Virus record (IMG/VR): IMGVR_UViG_3300031841_003573
Coordinates: 1 to 28,446 of that record
DNA from: a virus
Direction: 5' to 3' (one strand)
DNA: 28,446 nt
The position numbers and the translations under genes were made by a program. Below are positions 10,771-23,638 of this stretch, piece by piece (position 1 is the first letter of the stretch; each line of letters opens with the position of its first letter). The notes under the pieces are model-generated. The model searched no databases, was not told the DNA's origin, and was given only the letters and a program-made list of their open reading frames with translations.

Positions 10771-11844
10771 ATGATTTCAGGCGATGCCATGCAAGCGATA
10801 TGTGAGCACCGAAAACCACGTGAGACGAACAGCCTGTTCGGCTGCCGGGTGAAGGGCGTCTGCACGCCCGCCGAATGCGAAACGTGCGACAGTCACACGG
10901 CACGGGAAAGCAACGGCGTTGCGTGCATGATGCGGAAGCCGCAAACGATCGGTGAGGGATATCACCGCAGCGGGTGGCCGTTTGCTGTTGCCGCAATGCG
11001 GTCGATTCATTCTGGCCGGGCGTCGCTTTTGTTCGACGACTTCGTCGAGCAGACGTGGGTTTACAGCGGTCGCCAGGAACCGATTCGTCAGCCGTGGGCG
11101 GGCATCGTTCATCATCCGCCAAACCCACCACAATGGACGCGACAGCAAGATCGGCTTGACCAGTTGCACACGCTGCCGGGCTTCGCCGAATCGATGCCGC
11201 AACTTCGGTTGGCAATCTGCTTGTCAAAGTACGTGGCCGACTGGGTCGAAGCAAACTGGCAAGTGCCAACGGCTGTTGTGAAACACCCGACCGAAGTGCC
11301 CGAAACAAAGTGGCAGCCGGATGCATGGTTGCAGCATCGGCGGTTGCTGCAATGCGGTTGGTACTTGCGAAACGTCCGACTGATTCACCAAGTCGCAACA
11401 GATCAACACCGGACGCGGTTAATGCCTCGCCGGCCGGCGATGATCGAACATGAGGCCAATTGTCATCGAGAATTCAGCGGCCGACGGGAGCACAATCCGG
11501 GCGACGTGCTCGAATTAGACTACATCGACAACGACGGCTTCGACTACCTGCTTGGGCGGGCGGTCGTTTGCATGGAAGTGCTCGACGCGTCTGCCAACAA
11601 CGTGACGATCGAATGCCTTGCACGCAACACGCCGTTGATTGTCAATCGGCATCCGGCTGTTGCTGAGTATCTCGGCGAGGACTATCCGCTGTATTTCGAT
11701 CACGTTCGCGATGTCGCGAAAATGATCAGCAACGAGGATTTGATCCTGTCGGCTCATGAATACCTGAAGCAACGCGACAAATCGTTTCTGCCGGGTGCAG
11801 AGTTCGCCAATGGTGTCGCGGCAGCACTGGAGTCCGTGCAATGA
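10771..11844 (+). CDS. Glycosyltransferase with N-terminal Cys-rich domain
   Basis: The 357-residue protein combines two parts. Residues 1-40 hold Cys11 (CEHR), Cys25, Cys31, Cys36 and Cys39 in a zinc-ribbon-like pattern. The C-terminal part has GT-B features: NNVTIECLARNTPLIVNRHPAVAEYL (276-301), where the E..A.. helix binds the nucleotide sugar, and EDYPLYF. A middle segment contains HPPNPP and LSKYVADWV, typical of GT1/GT4-type enzymes. It should transfer a sugar from a nucleotide donor. ATG 10771 is preferred since 10726 lies in the fibre gene. The next gene overlaps by ATGA, giving a three-gene cassette with a methyltransferase and a sulfotransferase. Confidence 0.82.
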   Translation: MISGDAMQAICEHRKPRETNSLFGCRVKGVCTPAECETCDSHTARESNGVACMMRKPQTIGEGYHRSGWPFAVAAMRSIHSGRASLLFDDFVEQTWVYSGRQEPIRQPWAGIVHHPPNPPQWTRQQDRLDQLHTLPGFAESMPQLRLAICLSKYVADWVEANWQVPTAVVKHPTEVPETKWQPDAWLQHRRLLQCGWYLRNVRLIHQVATDQHRTRLMPRRPAMIEHEANCHREFSGRREHNPGDVLELDYIDNDGFDYLLGRAVVCMEVLDASANNVTIECLARNTPLIVNRHPAVAEYLGEDYPLYFDHVRDVAKMISNEDLILSAHEYLKQRDKSFLPGAEFANGVAAALESVQ

Positions 11845-12383
11845 TGGTGTCACCAGAGCAGCACGCGGTGATCTTCGAAGAGCTACGCGAGGCATTGAAC
11901 CACGCGGGCGACGTTGTCGAGGCGGGATGCAACGAAGGAAGCACGAGCTGCCAGCTTGCGAATTGGCTGGCATGCACCGATCGTGTACTTCACCTGTATG
12001 ACAGCTTCGAGGGGTTGCCAGAGGAGTCAGGCTATGGCGGACTGATGCAGACGACGCAGGCAAAGCTGGAATCAAACATCTGCCGAGCAACGGGCTGTGA
12101 AACGTTACCTGCGAACGTGCATGTGTATCCCGGATGGTTTCGCGACACGCTGCCAAGATCGCTGCCAGGCAAAATCTGCTTTGCGTTTCTCGATTGTGAT
12201 GTGTACGAATCAATGATCGATGCAATCAAAGATGTCCTGCCTCGACTGACGGGCGTCATGATCCTGCATGATTACTCACACTTCCGATGGGGTGCAGGAG
12301 TGCGTCGAGCTGTTGCTGACTGCGGTCTGATCGTCACCGAAAAAGCCGGAATGGCCATTGCATGGAAGGCGGATCAATGCTGA
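11841..12383 (+). CDS. TylF/MycF-like sugar O-methyltransferase
   Basis: The 180-residue SAM-dependent enzyme shows motif I VVEAGCNEGS (~25-34), LYDSFEGLPE (52-61) that is diagnostic for the TylF/MycF family, FLDCDVYESMIDAIKDVLPRL, and GVMILHDY near the C-terminus with the metal/base-like Asp residues. Family members methylate sugar hydroxyls of macrolides and surface glycans. The protein is somewhat shorter than classical TylF (~250), lacking the lid helices. It overlaps the glycosyltransferase gene by ATGA and the sulfotransferase gene by 7 bases. The likely substrate is the sugar placed by the upstream enzyme. Confidence 0.85.
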   Translation: MMVSPEQHAVIFEELREALNHAGDVVEAGCNEGSTSCQLANWLACTDRVLHLYDSFEGLPEESGYGGLMQTTQAKLESNICRATGCETLPANVHVYPGWFRDTLPRSLPGKICFAFLDCDVYESMIDAIKDVLPRLTGVMILHDYSHFRWGAGVRRAVADCGLIVTEKAGMAIAWKADQC

Positions 12384-12997
12384 TTAGCGACGCACACAAG
12401 TTCGCGTTCATCCACGTCCCAAAGACGGGGGGCGATTCAGTGACGGCTGCTCTGAAGTCTTATGCTGAATGCGACGGCTCGATCGGGCGGGTGAAGCATT
12501 GGACGGCACGGCACTTGAAGCAGTTATTCTTCAGGGAAGAGGTTGGCCGCGTCTGGAGTCAATATCATACGTTTGGAATGATCCGCAATCCGTGGCAACA
12601 GGTTCACAGTGACTATTGGTTCTGTCGAAATTCGCCTATCCCTGGCGTCGAGCTAGGATCGTGGCGAGACAAGGTGATCCGGGCTAAGGGGCAGACGTTC
12701 GCTCAATTCGTTGTTGATATTTGCGGTGAACATGGCACGGATGGGCGGGGGCTGTTTCACACATACCTCGCCGGCAATGACGGCAATCAACTGGTCAGTG
12801 ATGTTATCCGGCTGGAAGATATTGCTACTGAGTGGCCGAAGTTGTGCGGTGCTATCGGATTGCCAGGCATTGAGCTGCCGTGTCGCAATATGACGCCACG
12901 TCGGCCCGATTACCGCGATGACTACGACGACCGGTCGAGGTTTCTGGTCGGTCGAAAGTTTGCCGATGATATTCGGCGGTTTGATTACTCGTTTTGA
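12377..12997 (+). CDS. Sulfotransferase family protein
   Basis: The 206-residue protein has both PAPS-binding signatures: the 5'-phosphosulfate loop FIHVPKTGGDSV (11-22) and the 3'-phosphate motif GMIRNPWQQVHSDYW (67-81, Arg70, Ser78). This is the carbohydrate sulfotransferase type. It should transfer sulfate from host-made PAPS to a sugar or protein group. ATG 12377 overlaps the upstream stop; ATG 12362 lies inside the previous gene. The length is at the short end of the family but both motifs and a C-terminal helix are intact. No PAPS synthesis gene is present, so the phage depends on the host. Confidence 0.87.
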   Translation: MLISDAHKFAFIHVPKTGGDSVTAALKSYAECDGSIGRVKHWTARHLKQLFFREEVGRVWSQYHTFGMIRNPWQQVHSDYWFCRNSPIPGVELGSWRDKVIRAKGQTFAQFVVDICGEHGTDGRGLFHTYLAGNDGNQLVSDVIRLEDIATEWPKLCGAIGLPGIELPCRNMTPRRPDYRDDYDDRSRFLVGRKFADDIRRFDYSF

Positions 12998-16224: not shown

Positions 16225-16980
16225 ATGAATCCAACACACTGGGAACGCGGCACATACTCCCCTGCCGCAGCGTACTGGCTTTGCCAGTGTTCTGACCAAT
16301 CGTACCAGGCAGAGGATGTGGCTGTTGCCTACTACGCCCGGCATGGATTCGACATGCAACGCATCACTCGCGGGCATCTGTCGGTGGATGTGGCACGCAA
16401 GGGCAATACGCTGATCGTGGCGTTTGCTGGCACCAATGATATTGATGACTGGCTGACTAATCTCAGCGTTGGCAAAGATGACTGGCGTGGTTATCAGCTA
16501 CACAGCGGCTTCCACGCTGGTGAGGAATCACTGACAGCGGGCGGTGCTGACCTGTTTGGTGCCGATATCGCATCGGTATGGGTGACAGGTCATTCGATGG
16601 GCGGTGCGTTGGCGTCGTTGTTCGCGTTGCGGATCGTGGACGGACTGTGTGGAGAGGTGCTCAGTGGTTGCTACACGTACGGCTCGCCTCGCTGCATGGA
16701 CCGGCGATCTGCTGAGATGTTCGATCTGCTGGCGTTTGATCGGCATTACCGGCACGTGAACGGCAACGACATCGTGCCACGTGTTCCGTCCTGTCTGCGG
16801 TTTCGCCACAGTGGAAACCATGTTCGGATTAACAGGCATGGCGATGTGATTCACAATCCGTCACCGTTTTACTCGCTATATGATCGGGTGCTTGGTTATC
16901 GGGCGGATCTGGTTCGCAATCACTTTGTGGACAAATATCTGACGCCACTGTTATGGCGTGATGTGGAGTCGGTGATATGA
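16225..16980 (+). CDS. Class-3 lipase-like hydrolase
   Basis: The 251-residue alpha/beta hydrolase shows the lipase class 3 layout: FAGTNDIDDWLTNL (67-80, oxyanion loop), GHSMGGALASLFALR (122-136, nucleophile Ser124), TYGSPRCMD, NGNDIVPRVP (Asp182) and NHF near the end (His233). It should cleave acylglycerols or phospholipids. No signal peptide is evident, so it would act in the cytoplasm until a holin opens the membrane, or as a virion part. It is coupled by ATGA to a secreted protease gene. ATG 16225 lies 8 bases after the upstream stop; the longer frame starting at 16063 would overlap the Cys-rich gene. Confidence 0.85.
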   Translation: MNPTHWERGTYSPAAAYWLCQCSDQSYQAEDVAVAYYARHGFDMQRITRGHLSVDVARKGNTLIVAFAGTNDIDDWLTNLSVGKDDWRGYQLHSGFHAGEESLTAGGADLFGADIASVWVTGHSMGGALASLFALRIVDGLCGEVLSGCYTYGSPRCMDRRSAEMFDLLAFDRHYRHVNGNDIVPRVPSCLRFRHSGNHVRINRHGDVIHNPSPFYSLYDRVLGYRADLVRNHFVDKYLTPLLWRDVESVI

Positions 16981-18257
16981 GAGAAAAGATCTGGTGGGGT
17001 GTCGCCATGTTGGTGATGCTGCCGGGATTGTCGCTCGCGAATGAATCGGCAGTTGTGCGGCTCAGCTCCGGCTGTTCGGGTGTCTGCGTTTCTGCTGATG
17101 GGCTGATTCTGACTGCGGATCACTGCGGTGATGCCGAGATCGTGAAGGTGACGTTCCCGGACGGGTCAGTGTTTTCGGCTGAGCTGGAACATTCGCCACC
17201 AATTAACGGTATTGACGAGGTGCAAACGTACCGAGTACGCACTGAATCCCGATTGCCGTTTGCGGCTGTTGCAAGCACATCTGTCAAGTCAGGTGATCTC
17301 GTGTGGTCGGCAGGCTACCCCGCTGGCAACTATCAACTCAACCGAGGCACTGTGTCTCGTGTTGGATTCACCATACGTGATGGTTCAGCGTTTCAGGTTA
17401 AGCTGTCTGGCGGTGTCGTTACTGATTGGGGCAGCGACGCTGGTAACAGTGGCGGACCACTGTTCAATGCCGCGGACGAAGTTGTCGGCATACTCTCGAT
17501 GAGTGGCGATGCGAAATCGTACTGGATCGGGCTGGATTCTATTCGTGTGGCGATGAATGAGCGGCAAGTTCTGACTGCCTACGATCGGCAAACGGTTGTG
17601 GTTTTTACCGCTGATGGGTGTGGGCCGTGTGAGAGGCTGAAGCTTGACGCGAAGGCAGGACGTCTCGGCGAATACGAGTTTCGGTTCGTCAACTGGAACC
17701 CTGACCTCAGGGCGTGGAGTGATCCGGCGTTGGCGAAGGAGTTTTCAGCTACTGCTGAAGCTCCGGCGGGGCTGGGTTTTCCCGTCATCTGGGTGCGAGG
17801 CACTGACAAATATCGAGTTGGCTATGAGCCTGATCGACGTGGCGGGCTGGTTGGTTGGATCGCCAGCGTCTTCGATGGGCTGGCACGGTTAATCGTGGGC
17901 GAAAAGCCATCGCCAAAGTTTCCGCCACTTGACAGATCTTCACCGGCGGCTCCGCCTGCCGAGGATGCTGCACCATCGCCGCAGGTCAATAGTGCCTTGG
18001 AATCGGTCAAGCGAGTTGAGGCGGGGTTACTGAAGGCCAAAGAGGATATCGGCAAACTTCAATCTGCCAACCCGCTGACAAAGCTCAAAGGGGTGGTTGC
18101 ACTGAAGTCGGATGTGGCAGACATCAGAGAAGATGCAGCGACCGCTCTGTCCGAAATCAAAGGCGTGAAAGACAGTGCCAAAGAGAAGCCGCTGACTTAC
18201 CTGTGGGGTCTGTTTGGTGTGCTGTCAGGACTCGTACATCGGAGGTTCGCACACTGA
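16977..18257 (+). CDS. Secreted trypsin-like protease fused to thioredoxin-like domain
   Basis: The 426-residue protein starts with a signal peptide (hydrophobic 6-21, cleavage near SLA-NE). A trypsin-like domain follows (25-200): His49 in LTADHCG, Asp80 in GIDEV and Ser158 in GNSGGP. A thioredoxin-like domain (~205-285) begins VVVFTADGCGPCERLKLDA with CGPC at 215-218. Next come a Pro-rich linker (~311-335), a coiled-coil-like helix (~340-395) and a short hydrophobic stretch (LTYLWGLFGVLSGLV) near the C-terminus that may anchor it. It should act in the periplasm or envelope, perhaps cutting envelope proteins after disulfide reduction. It is followed by two small membrane proteins. Confidence 0.88.
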   Translation: MREKIWWGVAMLVMLPGLSLANESAVVRLSSGCSGVCVSADGLILTADHCGDAEIVKVTFPDGSVFSAELEHSPPINGIDEVQTYRVRTESRLPFAAVASTSVKSGDLVWSAGYPAGNYQLNRGTVSRVGFTIRDGSAFQVKLSGGVVTDWGSDAGNSGGPLFNAADEVVGILSMSGDAKSYWIGLDSIRVAMNERQVLTAYDRQTVVVFTADGCGPCERLKLDAKAGRLGEYEFRFVNWNPDLRAWSDPALAKEFSATAEAPAGLGFPVIWVRGTDKYRVGYEPDRRGGLVGWIASVFDGLARLIVGEKPSPKFPPLDRSSPAAPPAEDAAPSPQVNSALESVKRVEAGLLKAKEDIGKLQSANPLTKLKGVVALKSDVADIREDAATALSEIKGVKDSAKEKPLTYLWGLFGVLSGLVHRRFAH

Positions 18258-20767: not shown

Positions 20768-21121
20768 ATGGAGTCACTACTCACACAACGCATGCGGCAA
20801 CGCAACCTCACGGCTGTCGGTGTCAGCAACATGATGCGGCAGCGGAGCCAGCGGGCGATTGAATATGGCGACCACTTAATCCGGCGAGCGTACTCAGCAC
20901 GAGCCGTCAGCAGCGTGATGCGGAACCCTGACCATTTCGCGATCGGCTCGATCGTTGATGCCATCGACTCTGCTCTGCCGCCACTTACGCCGCAGCATGC
21001 CACCAGCGTGGAAGTTGGTAGCGAAGACAGAATTGCAGTGTACGCACAACGCTTTGCACGCGGCGAGGCACTATTTCACTGTGACGACATTTCCCATTAC
21101 AACAACGGAGAACAACTATGA
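20768..21121 (+). CDS. Hypothetical protein upstream of the sliding clamp
   Basis: The 117-residue protein is not recognised. It is basic and mainly helical in its N-terminal half (TQRMRQRNLTAVGVSNMMRQRSQRAIEYGDHL) with a mixed C-terminal half. No membrane segment or Cys cluster is seen. GGAGATAA precedes the ATG and its stop overlaps the clamp gene (ATGA), so it may work with the clamp. Confidence 0.5.
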   Translation: MESLLTQRMRQRNLTAVGVSNMMRQRSQRAIEYGDHLIRRAYSARAVSSVMRNPDHFAIGSIVDAIDSALPPLTPQHATSVEVGSEDRIAVYAQRFARGEALFHCDDISHYNNGEQL

Positions 21122-22194
21122 GATGTTCAGTTGAGAAACTAAAAGCCGCATGGAAGCAGGTTGCAGGGATCTGCCCGGCAAAGACGCCGAAGGAAATCTA
21201 TCAGTACGTTCGGCTCGACATTGCAGGCACGGCGTTCTCACTGGCTGCCACCGATGGTGAGGTGTTCGTCACTATTGGCGACTGTGCAACGCCAGAGTTC
21301 TCGCGGCTGTTGCCGGCAAAAGCGTTTACACGTCTCCTCGATGTGGCAACCGGTGACGAGATCGAATTCTCTGAGCAGTCGATCACCTGCGGGGCTGACA
21401 CATGGGAGCTTCAATCCCCAGATGTCGATGACTGGCAGTTTTCAGGTGTGCCTGACACTGGCCGCAACTACAACGTCGACTGCGATGCAATTACTAACGG
21501 GTTGGCAATCTCGATCCTGTCTGTAGATGCCGAGTCAACTCGATATGCACTCGGTGGAGTGCTGTTCGACTTCATTAACGCGGACACACTCGGTTTGGTG
21601 GCAACTGACGGACGCCGTCTCAGTATTTGCGAGATCGATTGCGAGTGTGAAGGCAATGCCGACAGTGATACTGACGCCGTCGTTCCGCTCAAAACGCTCA
21701 AGACGTTAATGGCAATTTGCGGCAATGCTGGTGAGATGTCGTTTGCCTACGGCCTGACTGGTGGCATCGTGTTCCGCTGCGGTGATGCGGTGATTCACTC
21801 ACCACTCGTTGCAGGCCGGTTCCCTGACTGGCGGAAGGTGATGCCTGACACAAAGCAAAGCCAGTTTGAGTTTCCGGCGGGCGAGCTTTCGGCCAGCTTG
21901 AAGTCAGCTGCCATCACAACGAGCGAAGAGTCACGCGGACTGAATGTAACCTTTAATGATGCTGGTATCACCATCACCAGCCACGCTGCCGATGTTGGGC
22001 GAAGTCGTATTACTCGCCAGCTTGAGTTTGGCGACATGGCCCGCATGACCATAAATTCAGACTACCTGTTGCCACTGCTTAACAAAGTCGGTGGCGACTG
22101 CGAACTCACTCTCGATTACATCGATAGCGAGTCACCATTGCTGTTCTCGCATGATGGCGGGTTGCGTTACCTGCTGATGCCGCTTTCCGCTTAA
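21118..22194 (+). CDS. dnaN: DNA polymerase III beta subunit-like sliding clamp
   Basis: The 358-residue protein matches DnaN over its length. Diagnostic segments are VDAESTRYALGGVLFDF (domain 2; compare the ESxYALNGVLF-type strand), LVATDGRRLSICEI, VPLKTLKTL, VAGRFPDWRKVMP (close to the GRYPDYRKVLP clamp motif), and the C-terminal YLLMPLSA (compare YVVMPM). Three clamp domains are therefore present. The ring would tether a polymerase to DNA and also serve as a platform for partners. Many phages use the host clamp, so an own clamp is notable. The gene overlaps the upstream ORF by ATGA and lies 13 bases before a sigma-like gene. No polymerase gene is visible in the window. Confidence 0.92.
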   Translation: MRCSVEKLKAAWKQVAGICPAKTPKEIYQYVRLDIAGTAFSLAATDGEVFVTIGDCATPEFSRLLPAKAFTRLLDVATGDEIEFSEQSITCGADTWELQSPDVDDWQFSGVPDTGRNYNVDCDAITNGLAISILSVDAESTRYALGGVLFDFINADTLGLVATDGRRLSICEIDCECEGNADSDTDAVVPLKTLKTLMAICGNAGEMSFAYGLTGGIVFRCGDAVIHSPLVAGRFPDWRKVMPDTKQSQFEFPAGELSASLKSAAITTSEESRGLNVTFNDAGITITSHAADVGRSRITRQLEFGDMARMTINSDYLLPLLNKVGGDCELTLDYIDSESPLLFSHDGGLRYLLMPLSA

Positions 22195-22207
22195 TGGGAG
22201 CAACGTC

Positions 22208-22693
22208 ATGGAAGGTCCATTCGGAGTACCCGGACGCACTCGCAGAGGCTCTGAATCTGATTGTCTGTTGACGCTACTGGTCGACAGCACAGCTGAGCGT
22301 GTCAAGTTTGGTTATTCGCTGAACGAGCACGACGCTGAGGATGTGCGGCAGGAAATATTCCTGCACGTTCTCAGCAATTGGAAGCACTGGAATCCTGACA
22401 AATGCCACATCGGGGCTGCGTTGCGAGTCATGGTGGGTCAGGGATGTTCGCGGGCGATCGCGAAGATTAAAGGCAAAGGCGACATGCGAATCGTCCTGGC
22501 CACAGATACGGCAAACGAGGACGGCCAGGACTTCCTCAATTGGGTGCCGCTGGTCGACGGCACTGGCGACGCCGAGTGGTCACCGGACCACTCGGAAGAG
22601 ATTGATTTACCAACTCCACACTCACACAAGAAGGATGCGAAATGTTCTACAAAGAAGACGCCGACAGACTCTCAGCAGTCTTTGCTGTGGTAA
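22208..22693 (+). CDS. Small sigma-factor-like protein (region 2 only)
   Basis: The 161-residue protein shows sigma-70 region 2: HDAEDVRQEIFLHVLSNWKHW (41-61) is the region 2.1-2.2 helix that binds the beta' clamp helices, and the following ALRVMVGQGCSRAIAKIKGKGD (71-92) fits regions 2.3-2.4 that contact the -10 element. No region 4 helix-turn-helix is seen, so it is shorter than an ECF sigma. The tail is acidic then basic and ends exactly with QQSLLW, resembling the clamp-binding motif QxxL(L)F. It follows the DnaN-like gene by 13 bases. It could direct host RNA polymerase to phage late promoters, like T4 gp55. The overlap with the next gene restricts its last 17 codons. Confidence 0.7.
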   Translation: MEGPFGVPGRTRRGSESDCLLTLLVDSTAERVKFGYSLNEHDAEDVRQEIFLHVLSNWKHWNPDKCHIGAALRVMVGQGCSRAIAKIKGKGDMRIVLATDTANEDGQDFLNWVPLVDGTGDAEWSPDHSEEIDLPTPHSHKKDAKCSTKKTPTDSQQSLLW

Positions 22694-22929
22694 GGCCCAT
22701 GACACAACTGCAAGGCTGCGTGACTGACCTGATCGCGGCTCGTGAAGATTGCCAAACAGCAATCGAGCACACGATGAATGCCAATAACAACCTCGCTGAG
22801 TTTGTCGGGCCGGGCGAGGACAGGTGGGTCGTAATCGGACAGGCCGTTCACCACATCGCAAACGACGATGGCACCATATACATCGACACTTACATCAGGG
22901 AGAAAACAGATGCCGCTGAGCACATCTAA
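22642..22929 (+). CDS. Hypothetical small protein in the replication operon
   Basis: The 95-residue protein is not recognised. The N-terminal half is helical and polar (EDADRLSAVFAVVRPMTQLQGCVTDLIAAREDCQTAIEHTMNANNNLAEF), the C-terminal half forms short strands (WVVIGQAVHHIANDDGTIYIDTYI). It overlaps the sigma-like gene by 52 bases and the Sak4-like gene by 20. ATG 22642 has AAGGAT upstream; ATG 22699 would avoid most overlap. The call depends on operon context. Confidence 0.5.
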   Translation: MFYKEDADRLSAVFAVVRPMTQLQGCVTDLIAAREDCQTAIEHTMNANNNLAEFVGPGEDRWVVIGQAVHHIANDDGTIYIDTYIREKTDAAEHI

Positions 22930-23638
22930 GGGTAAACAACATAAGCCGCGGCGAGTGTTGCTGTATGGCGTGCATGGGATCGGCAAAAGCACGTTTGCGG
23001 CAGATGCACCTGACGCTGTGTTCCTGCCAACTGAGGACGGGATCGCAGATATCGACTGCGAGTCGTTCCCGCTGTCGCAGACGTTTGAGGAATTTGACGG
23101 CTACCTGCAACAACTGGCGAGCGAAGACCATGACCGGAAGACACTCGTGATTGACTCACTCGACTGGCTCGAGCGGCTCATCTGGGGTGCTGTCGAAATC
23201 GAGCACGGCGTGAAGTCGATCGAAGATATCGGCTACGCGAAGGGCTACACGTTCGCCCTGAAGCAGTGGCGGCAAGTGCTGCGGGCGTTGGATTGGTTGC
23301 GTGACAATAAGGGCATGACGTGCCTGTTGCTGGCACACGCGAAGATTGAGCGTTTTCAGCCGCCAGACAATGACGCCTTCGATCGGTACTCACCAAAGCT
23401 ACACAAGCTCGCGTCAGGGATTGTGCAGGAATGGTGTGACGAAGTGTTGTTCGCGAATTATCAGACCTTCGTAAAAACCAGTGGCGAAGGGTTTGACAAG
23501 CGAACGCAGGGAGTGGGAGTGGGTGAGCGGATCGTTCACACCAGTGAGCGACCGTCGCACCTCGCCAAGAACAGGGCAGCGTTGCCCGAAACTCTGCCAC
23601 TCGTGTGGTCGGAGTATCAATCAGCAGTTTCATTTTGA
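22910..23638 (+). CDS. Sak4-like RecA-fold ATPase (AAA_24)
   Basis: The 242-residue P-loop protein has Walker A GVHGIGKST (20-28) and Walker B KTLVIDSLDWLE (77-88), with RVLLYGVHGIG and FLPTEDGIADID in the layout of phage Sak4 / AAA_24 proteins. A helical middle (YTFALKQWRQVLRALDWLRDNKGMTCLLLAHAKIERF) contains the family's LLAHxK motif. These single-strand annealing or RecA-like proteins act in phage recombination and often lie next to DUF669 (single-strand DNA-binding-like) genes, as here. ATG 22910 has AGGGAG upstream and is preferred to 22868. Confidence 0.85.
   Translation: MPLSTSKGKQHKPRRVLLYGVHGIGKSTFAADAPDAVFLPTEDGIADIDCESFPLSQTFEEFDGYLQQLASEDHDRKTLVIDSLDWLERLIWGAVEIEHGVKSIEDIGYAKGYTFALKQWRQVLRALDWLRDNKGMTCLLLAHAKIERFQPPDNDAFDRYSPKLHKLASGIVQEWCDEVLFANYQTFVKTSGEGFDKRTQGVGVGERIVHTSERPSHLAKNRAALPETLPLVWSEYQSAVSF

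Follow-up and report, generated by a model that had tools for sequence, protein, structure and literature searches.

The virus DNA analyzed here as a whole (the window, a 28.4-kb linear IMG/VR virus record of 28,446 nt) encodes, just downstream of a sliding clamp, a 161-aa sigma-like protein that we propose to be an RNA polymerase-binding factor built on region 2, in which a tether to the phage's own beta clamp would have taken the place of region 4, coupling gene expression to replication. Both genes, their linkage, a conserved tail motif, a conserved clamp pocket and region-4-bearing counterparts in cousin phages can be read in the sequences themselves, and on this basis we give the proposal a probability of roughly 0.57. 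Its ancestor would be a sigma factor with two domains; the region-2-like core would bind host RNA polymerase, and the lost region 4 would have given way to a flexible linker of 25-30 aa that ends in a beta-clamp-binding peptide (Q-P/S-L-L-F/W). By docking in the pocket of the phage DnaN-type clamp encoded just upstream, this tail peptide would tether the polymerase to clamps that remain on phage DNA undergoing replication, and the genes served, most simply the late, structural ones, would be expressed at the time and place of phage DNA replication. The steps that we infer are the binding of RNA polymerase and of the clamp, the recognition of promoters and the coupling to late genes.

The first 19 kb of the window hold capsid, tail and accessory genes and are followed by a replication and recombination block, with all called genes on the + strand. 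Within this block, the clamp is followed by the 161-aa sigma-like protein, a 95-aa gene, an AAA_24 ATPase of the Sak4-like type, a DUF669 (SSB-like) gene, a nuclease and helicases. The features of the locus, in window positions, are listed here (L005, L006 and L035 are relatives described below).

20768-21121, + strand: small gene on the 5' side of the clamp, 117 aa; matches no family; its last 4 nt lie within the start of the clamp gene; conserved in L005, L006 and L035
21118-22194, + strand: DnaN-type (bacterial beta) sliding clamp, 358 aa; PF02767/PF02768, PHROG 947; pocket largely kept
22208-22693, + strand: sigma region-2-like protein, 161 aa; Sigma70_r2; no region 4; C-terminal clamp-binding-like tail
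22313-22450, + strand: region 2.1-2.3-like stretch, residues 36-81, YSLNEHDAEDVRQEIFLHVLSNWKHWNPDKCHIGAALRVMVGQGCS, from the alignments
22586-22675, + strand: unconserved linker, 30 aa, from the alignment with L006 and L035
22673-22690, + strand: putative clamp-binding motif QQSLLW, C-terminal; its QSLLW part aligns with the QPLLF found in L006 and L035
22642-22929, + strand: next gene, 95 aa, no assigned function; in the window, its first 52 nt lie within the sigma-like gene
22910-23638, + strand: Sak4-like AAA_24 recombination ATPase (PF13479 4.2e-48, PHROG 124); conserved, anchoring the module on its downstream side

In IMG/VR, two independent scans with conserved blocks, together with profile-based searches, placed the sigma-like gene in four distinct viruses and no others: the window (of which L002 is a 100% copy), L035, L006 and L004/L005, the last two records sharing 8 kb at 100%. 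With the sigma-like protein and the conserved blocks as queries, no further homologue was found in IMG/VR beyond these four, and none in phage records or in a collection of 84,980 genomes of bacteria and archaea, which thus gave no match pointing to a host. In each of the four viruses, the gene lies 10-13 nt after the clamp. Among 17 other records with a related AAA_24 gene, many of them fragments, the sigma-like gene is found in none and a clamp match, partial and distant, in two, and Microcystis, Thermus, Alteromonas and Aurantimonas phages with more distant DnaN-like clamps gave no Sigma70_r2 match.

As for the clamp, the sequence-only reading had placed a DnaN-like protein 13 nt before the small ORF, and Pfam and PHROG 947 agree in confirming it. 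Beta-clamp domains 2 and 3 match above cut-off (1.7e-15 and 1.1e-7, respectively), domain 1 matches weakly and below threshold, and PHROG 947 ("DNA polymerase processivity factor") covers the protein over its full length (4.5e-49). Moreover, a profile built from the four clamp relatives matches bacterial beta clamps of solved structure over the full length (2e-24). A published list gives 18 pocket residues for the Escherichia coli clamp (PMC11139829), and the window clamp is identical to E. coli DnaN at 12 of them (R152, L155, T172, G174, R176, L177, P242, V247, N320, Y323, M362 and P363), and the remaining positions are mostly conservative, with H175R, V344E/D and R365S/A specific to the family. 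Judged by these alignments, the window clamp is a DnaN-type beta sliding clamp in which the client-peptide pocket is conserved. Since family A, B and C DNA polymerases and clamp-loader subunits were searched for in the four records and none was found, the phage clamp would be loaded and used by host enzymes, a reliance that fits the keeping of a standard bacterial pocket and motif.

The sigma-like assignment, region 2 without region 4, likewise stands. Sigma70_r2 is the sole Pfam match of the 161-aa ORF, at E = 2.4e-4 and 21.2 bits against a curated PF04542 cut-off of 24 that the window protein does not reach; it is still the best match for three of the four family members, and Pfam detects no region 4 in the window protein. 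Most of the family's better NCBIfam matches are sigma factors. When the four-member profile was compared by hhalign with region 2 of the sigma factors of syntenic cousin phages, the alignment was collinear with probabilities of 47-78%, as against at most 1.1% for 40 column-shuffled control profiles. Asp45 and Gln48 are invariant in the alignment of the four members, and we take them to be the core-contacting sigma70 region 2.2 residues D403 and Q406. The DNA-facing half of region 2 has fewer basic residues and lacks an aromatic residue in the 2.3 stretch, GAALR[VI]MVGQG (GAALRVMVGQG in the window), where Ala is found at the position occupied by Phe or Trp in most cousins and in RpoE. From its sequence, the promoter-melting half of region 2 is thus atypical in this family. 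An AlphaFold2 model of the sigma-like protein from the four sequences reached a pLDDT of 35.

The cousin phages show what else can occupy this locus. Those that cover it (L007/L008/L027, L011, L012, L013, L015 and L016/L018) carry, directly upstream of AAA_24, a sigma factor with both region 2 and region 4. It sits at the same place before the AAA_24-DUF669-helicase block, and its region 2 aligns with that of the family, but it differs in having kept region 4, and the cousins have neither a clamp nor a clamp-binding-like Q..LF end. The tail motif is present in three of four family members and in none of six cousins (L007, L011, L012, L013, L015 and L016; Fisher P = 0.03, on a small sample of four distinct viruses that makes for thin statistics). 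By this comparison, the locus seems to exist in two alternative states, one with a clamp and a sigma that lacks region 4 and usually has a tail, the other with a complete sigma and no clamp. The cousins would then offer a natural before/after pair, region 4 without a clamp on one side and a clamp tether without region 4 on the other. As a separate observation, the complete two-domain sigmas in the cousins' early/recombination block look like a phage sigma factor family of their own.

The window protein ends DSQQSLLW, L006 ends EDAQPLLFDAFNDGD (its last part being QPLLFDAFNDGD) and L035 ends VEQQPLLFDAVN, so that the latter two share QPLLFDA[FV]N (QPLLFDAVN in L035). The linkers between core and motif, of 30 aa in the window, 29 in L006 and 25 in L035, are not conserved. 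L006 and L035 are identical in only about half of the core and have dissimilar linkers, yet the motif is conserved, and the seven codons for QPLLFDA differ at synonymous sites only. QPLLF matches the CBM consensus at Gln1, Leu4 and Phe5, with Pro at position 2, where an aliphatic residue is usual, and it is one residue away from the crystallized MutL CBM, QPLLI (PMC11139829). The pattern Q-phi-x-[LM]-[FL] in a flexible segment is met by QPLLF in L006 and L035, and the QSLLW of the window is near-consensus only. The resemblance to the clamp-binding consensus originally noted for QQSLLW therefore holds in near-canonical form for two relatives and more loosely, with its Trp end, for the window itself. 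The fourth member, L004/L005, stops at the end of a core that is 73% identical, with no tail and no motif; thus, of the two traits looked for among homologues, clamp adjacency is general, and a C-terminal Q-x-L-L-[WF] is found in three of four.

The tail motif is more than chance would produce. In shuffled tails, the loose pattern Q..[LMI][FWY] arises in 0.6-0.9% and Q.LL[FW] in 0.01-0.07%, and among 90 called genes (window and 40.8-kb relative), only the two sigma-like orthologues carry Q..[LMI][FWY] in their last 40 aa. The caution, raised at the outset, that the motif lies in a gene overlap is justified for the window, where it sits inside the 52-nt overlap with the next ORF, but does not extend to L006 and L035, whose motifs precede the start of the next gene. 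We consequently rejected gene overlap as a general origin of the motif. The window motif is the least canonical of the three, with its Trp end and overprinted frame, and because of that overprinting, it may have been re-made or be partly fortuitous. In L006, the clamp and sigma-like ORFs are in frame across the clamp stop and were modeled as one chain by AlphaFold2, which gave a reasonable prediction for clamp domains 1-2, while clamp domain 3, the sigma part and the tail stayed under a pLDDT of 50.

It had also been suggested to test for a -10-like motif shared by late genes; our search before the structural genes found none, and it returned nothing convincing by way of T4-type late promoters (TATAAATA-type). 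One exact TATAAATA occurs in an origin-like region of the L006 contig. We set the TATAAATA cluster there aside as a probable AT-rich origin element, since it sits between inverted and direct CTCGGAAGTT repeats after the primase gene. The origin-like region itself (L044:18952-19240, L006 contig 38952-39240) follows the primase gene and displays direct and inverted CTCGGAAGTT/AACTTCCGAG copies around AT-rich stretches (TATAAATATAAT; AATAATATACATATAAATCTATATATAATAAC).

These results bear on three other accounts of the protein. It might bind RNA polymerase and the clamp and yet not be a promoter factor, serving to inhibit or redirect host transcription or to prevent polymerase-replisome collisions on phage DNA. 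We consider this unlikely, although the preserved polymerase-binding half of region 2, with its invariant Asp45 and Gln48, next to an atypical DNA-facing half would suit it, as would the outcome of the late-promoter search. Set against it are the ordinary two-domain sigmas at the cousins' locus, which make a sigma role the parsimonious ancestry, and the precedent of T4 gp55, in which region 2 has strongly diverged in a true promoter factor (PMC2988020). That the sigma similarity is an inherited fold with no role in transcription, and the protein a clamp-binding replication or repair adaptor, strikes us as distinctly improbable. The better family matches (in NCBIfam, mostly) and the syntenic counterparts are sigma factors, the latter full ones, and this weighs more with us than the position of the gene within a replication/recombination block (clamp, Sak4-like, DUF669 SSB-like, nuclease and helicase genes) or the usefulness that an adaptor to host enzymes could have for a phage with a clamp in which no polymerase or clamp loader was found.

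There is a similarly small chance that we are dealing with an ordinary small phage sigma-like protein, with a tail motif due to chance or serving another purpose and a clamp adjacency that is mere operon structure. The tail-less L004/L005 gene does still adjoin a clamp, the window motif does lie in an overprinted frame, and homologues are few. However, two diverged viruses have QPLLFDAxN in common, after unconserved linkers and outside any overlap, shuffled tails seldom produce the motif, and the clamp pocket is conserved. A region-2 factor tethered to the clamp is the account that we favor over all three. Counting against it are the tail-less L004/L005, the Trp-ended and overprinted motif of the window, the Sigma70_r2 score below cut-off, the 2.3 stretch with no aromatic residue, and the searches for a gp33-like partner and a shared late -10 motif, which found neither.

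The closest known parallel to such a factor is the gp55/gp45 pair of T4. In both cases a small region-2 protein without region 4 continues into a divergent linker with a clamp epitope, a putative one here, at the C-terminus, and the clamp is encoded by the phage itself. In T4 gp55, region 2 is followed by such a linker and then by the epitope (PMC2988020, PMC7892883), its tail being SLDFLYEAND. Removal of this epitope impairs activation without abolishing it (PMC7892883), and since the epitope is an improvement rather than a necessity, a tail-less L005 is tolerable for the T4 analogy. On sequence grounds, the resemblance to gp55 is in anatomy only, as hhalign detected no homology between it and the sigma-like family (probability 0.3%, E 0.2). 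The two systems differ in other respects as well: the clamp is DnaN-type here and PCNA-like in T4 gp45; the motif is of the bacterial QxxLF type here and LDFL in gp55; T4 has the co-activator gp33, whereas no gp33-like partner, polymerase or clamp loader was found here; and in these phages, with a genome of about 40 kb and an integrase in the L006 contig, the sigma-like gene comes immediately after that of the clamp. The CBM-bearing clients of the bacterial beta clamp (Pol II, Pol IV, Hda and MutL, with its QPLLI) have the same type of motif and would share the predicted pocket, but they are replication, repair and regulatory proteins and are not sigma-like.

Whether this amounts to a second, independently evolved clamp-activated system, in which a phage sigma swapped its -35-binding region 4 for a beta-clamp tether and late transcription became tied to replication outside the T4 family, is a bolder claim, to which we would give somewhat less than an even chance. 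The sequence-only reading had arrived at much the same idea. A 2010 review knew of no natural instance of a sliding clamp acting as a direct transcription activator beyond T4-related phages (PMC2988020), and in the openly licensed literature that we searched, clamp-activated transcription is described for T4-related phages only. If the claim is true, coupling of replication and transcription by a tracking clamp evolved more than once, here on a bacterial beta clamp, and the small parts and well-studied beta clamp would make for an easily testable system.

Other features of these genomes deserve mention. The 40.8-kb L006 contig encodes terminase, portal, integrase, primase, methylase and metallophosphoesterase genes and, at its end, a serine/threonine-kinase-like gene (L045:1701-2822, PHROG 2361). 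A 30-nt sequence, ACAAAAAATGGCACTAAACCAACGGAGCTG, occurs twice in this contig, at its start just before the first late gene (L043:4-33) and in non-coding DNA before the kinase gene (L044:19371-19400); it may serve in packaging or regulation or reflect an effect of the contig end. The window has a hairpin (CCTGCGG...CCGCAGG, 953-1000) with a T-run in its loop immediately before the capsid gene, conserved in the L006 contig, and a tRNA-Met (CAT) gene within its structural operon (2351-2425), where it is flanked by the capsid gene and the head-tail genes; the same gap of L006 has a tRNA-like sequence. Further along, possible surface- or sugar-modifying genes are found among the structural genes (10771-12997), including a TylF-type methyltransferase (11841-12383) and a sulfotransferase-like gene (12377-12997), and the segment at 16977-18257 encodes a trypsin-like protease with a downstream CGPC that resembles a thioredoxin site.
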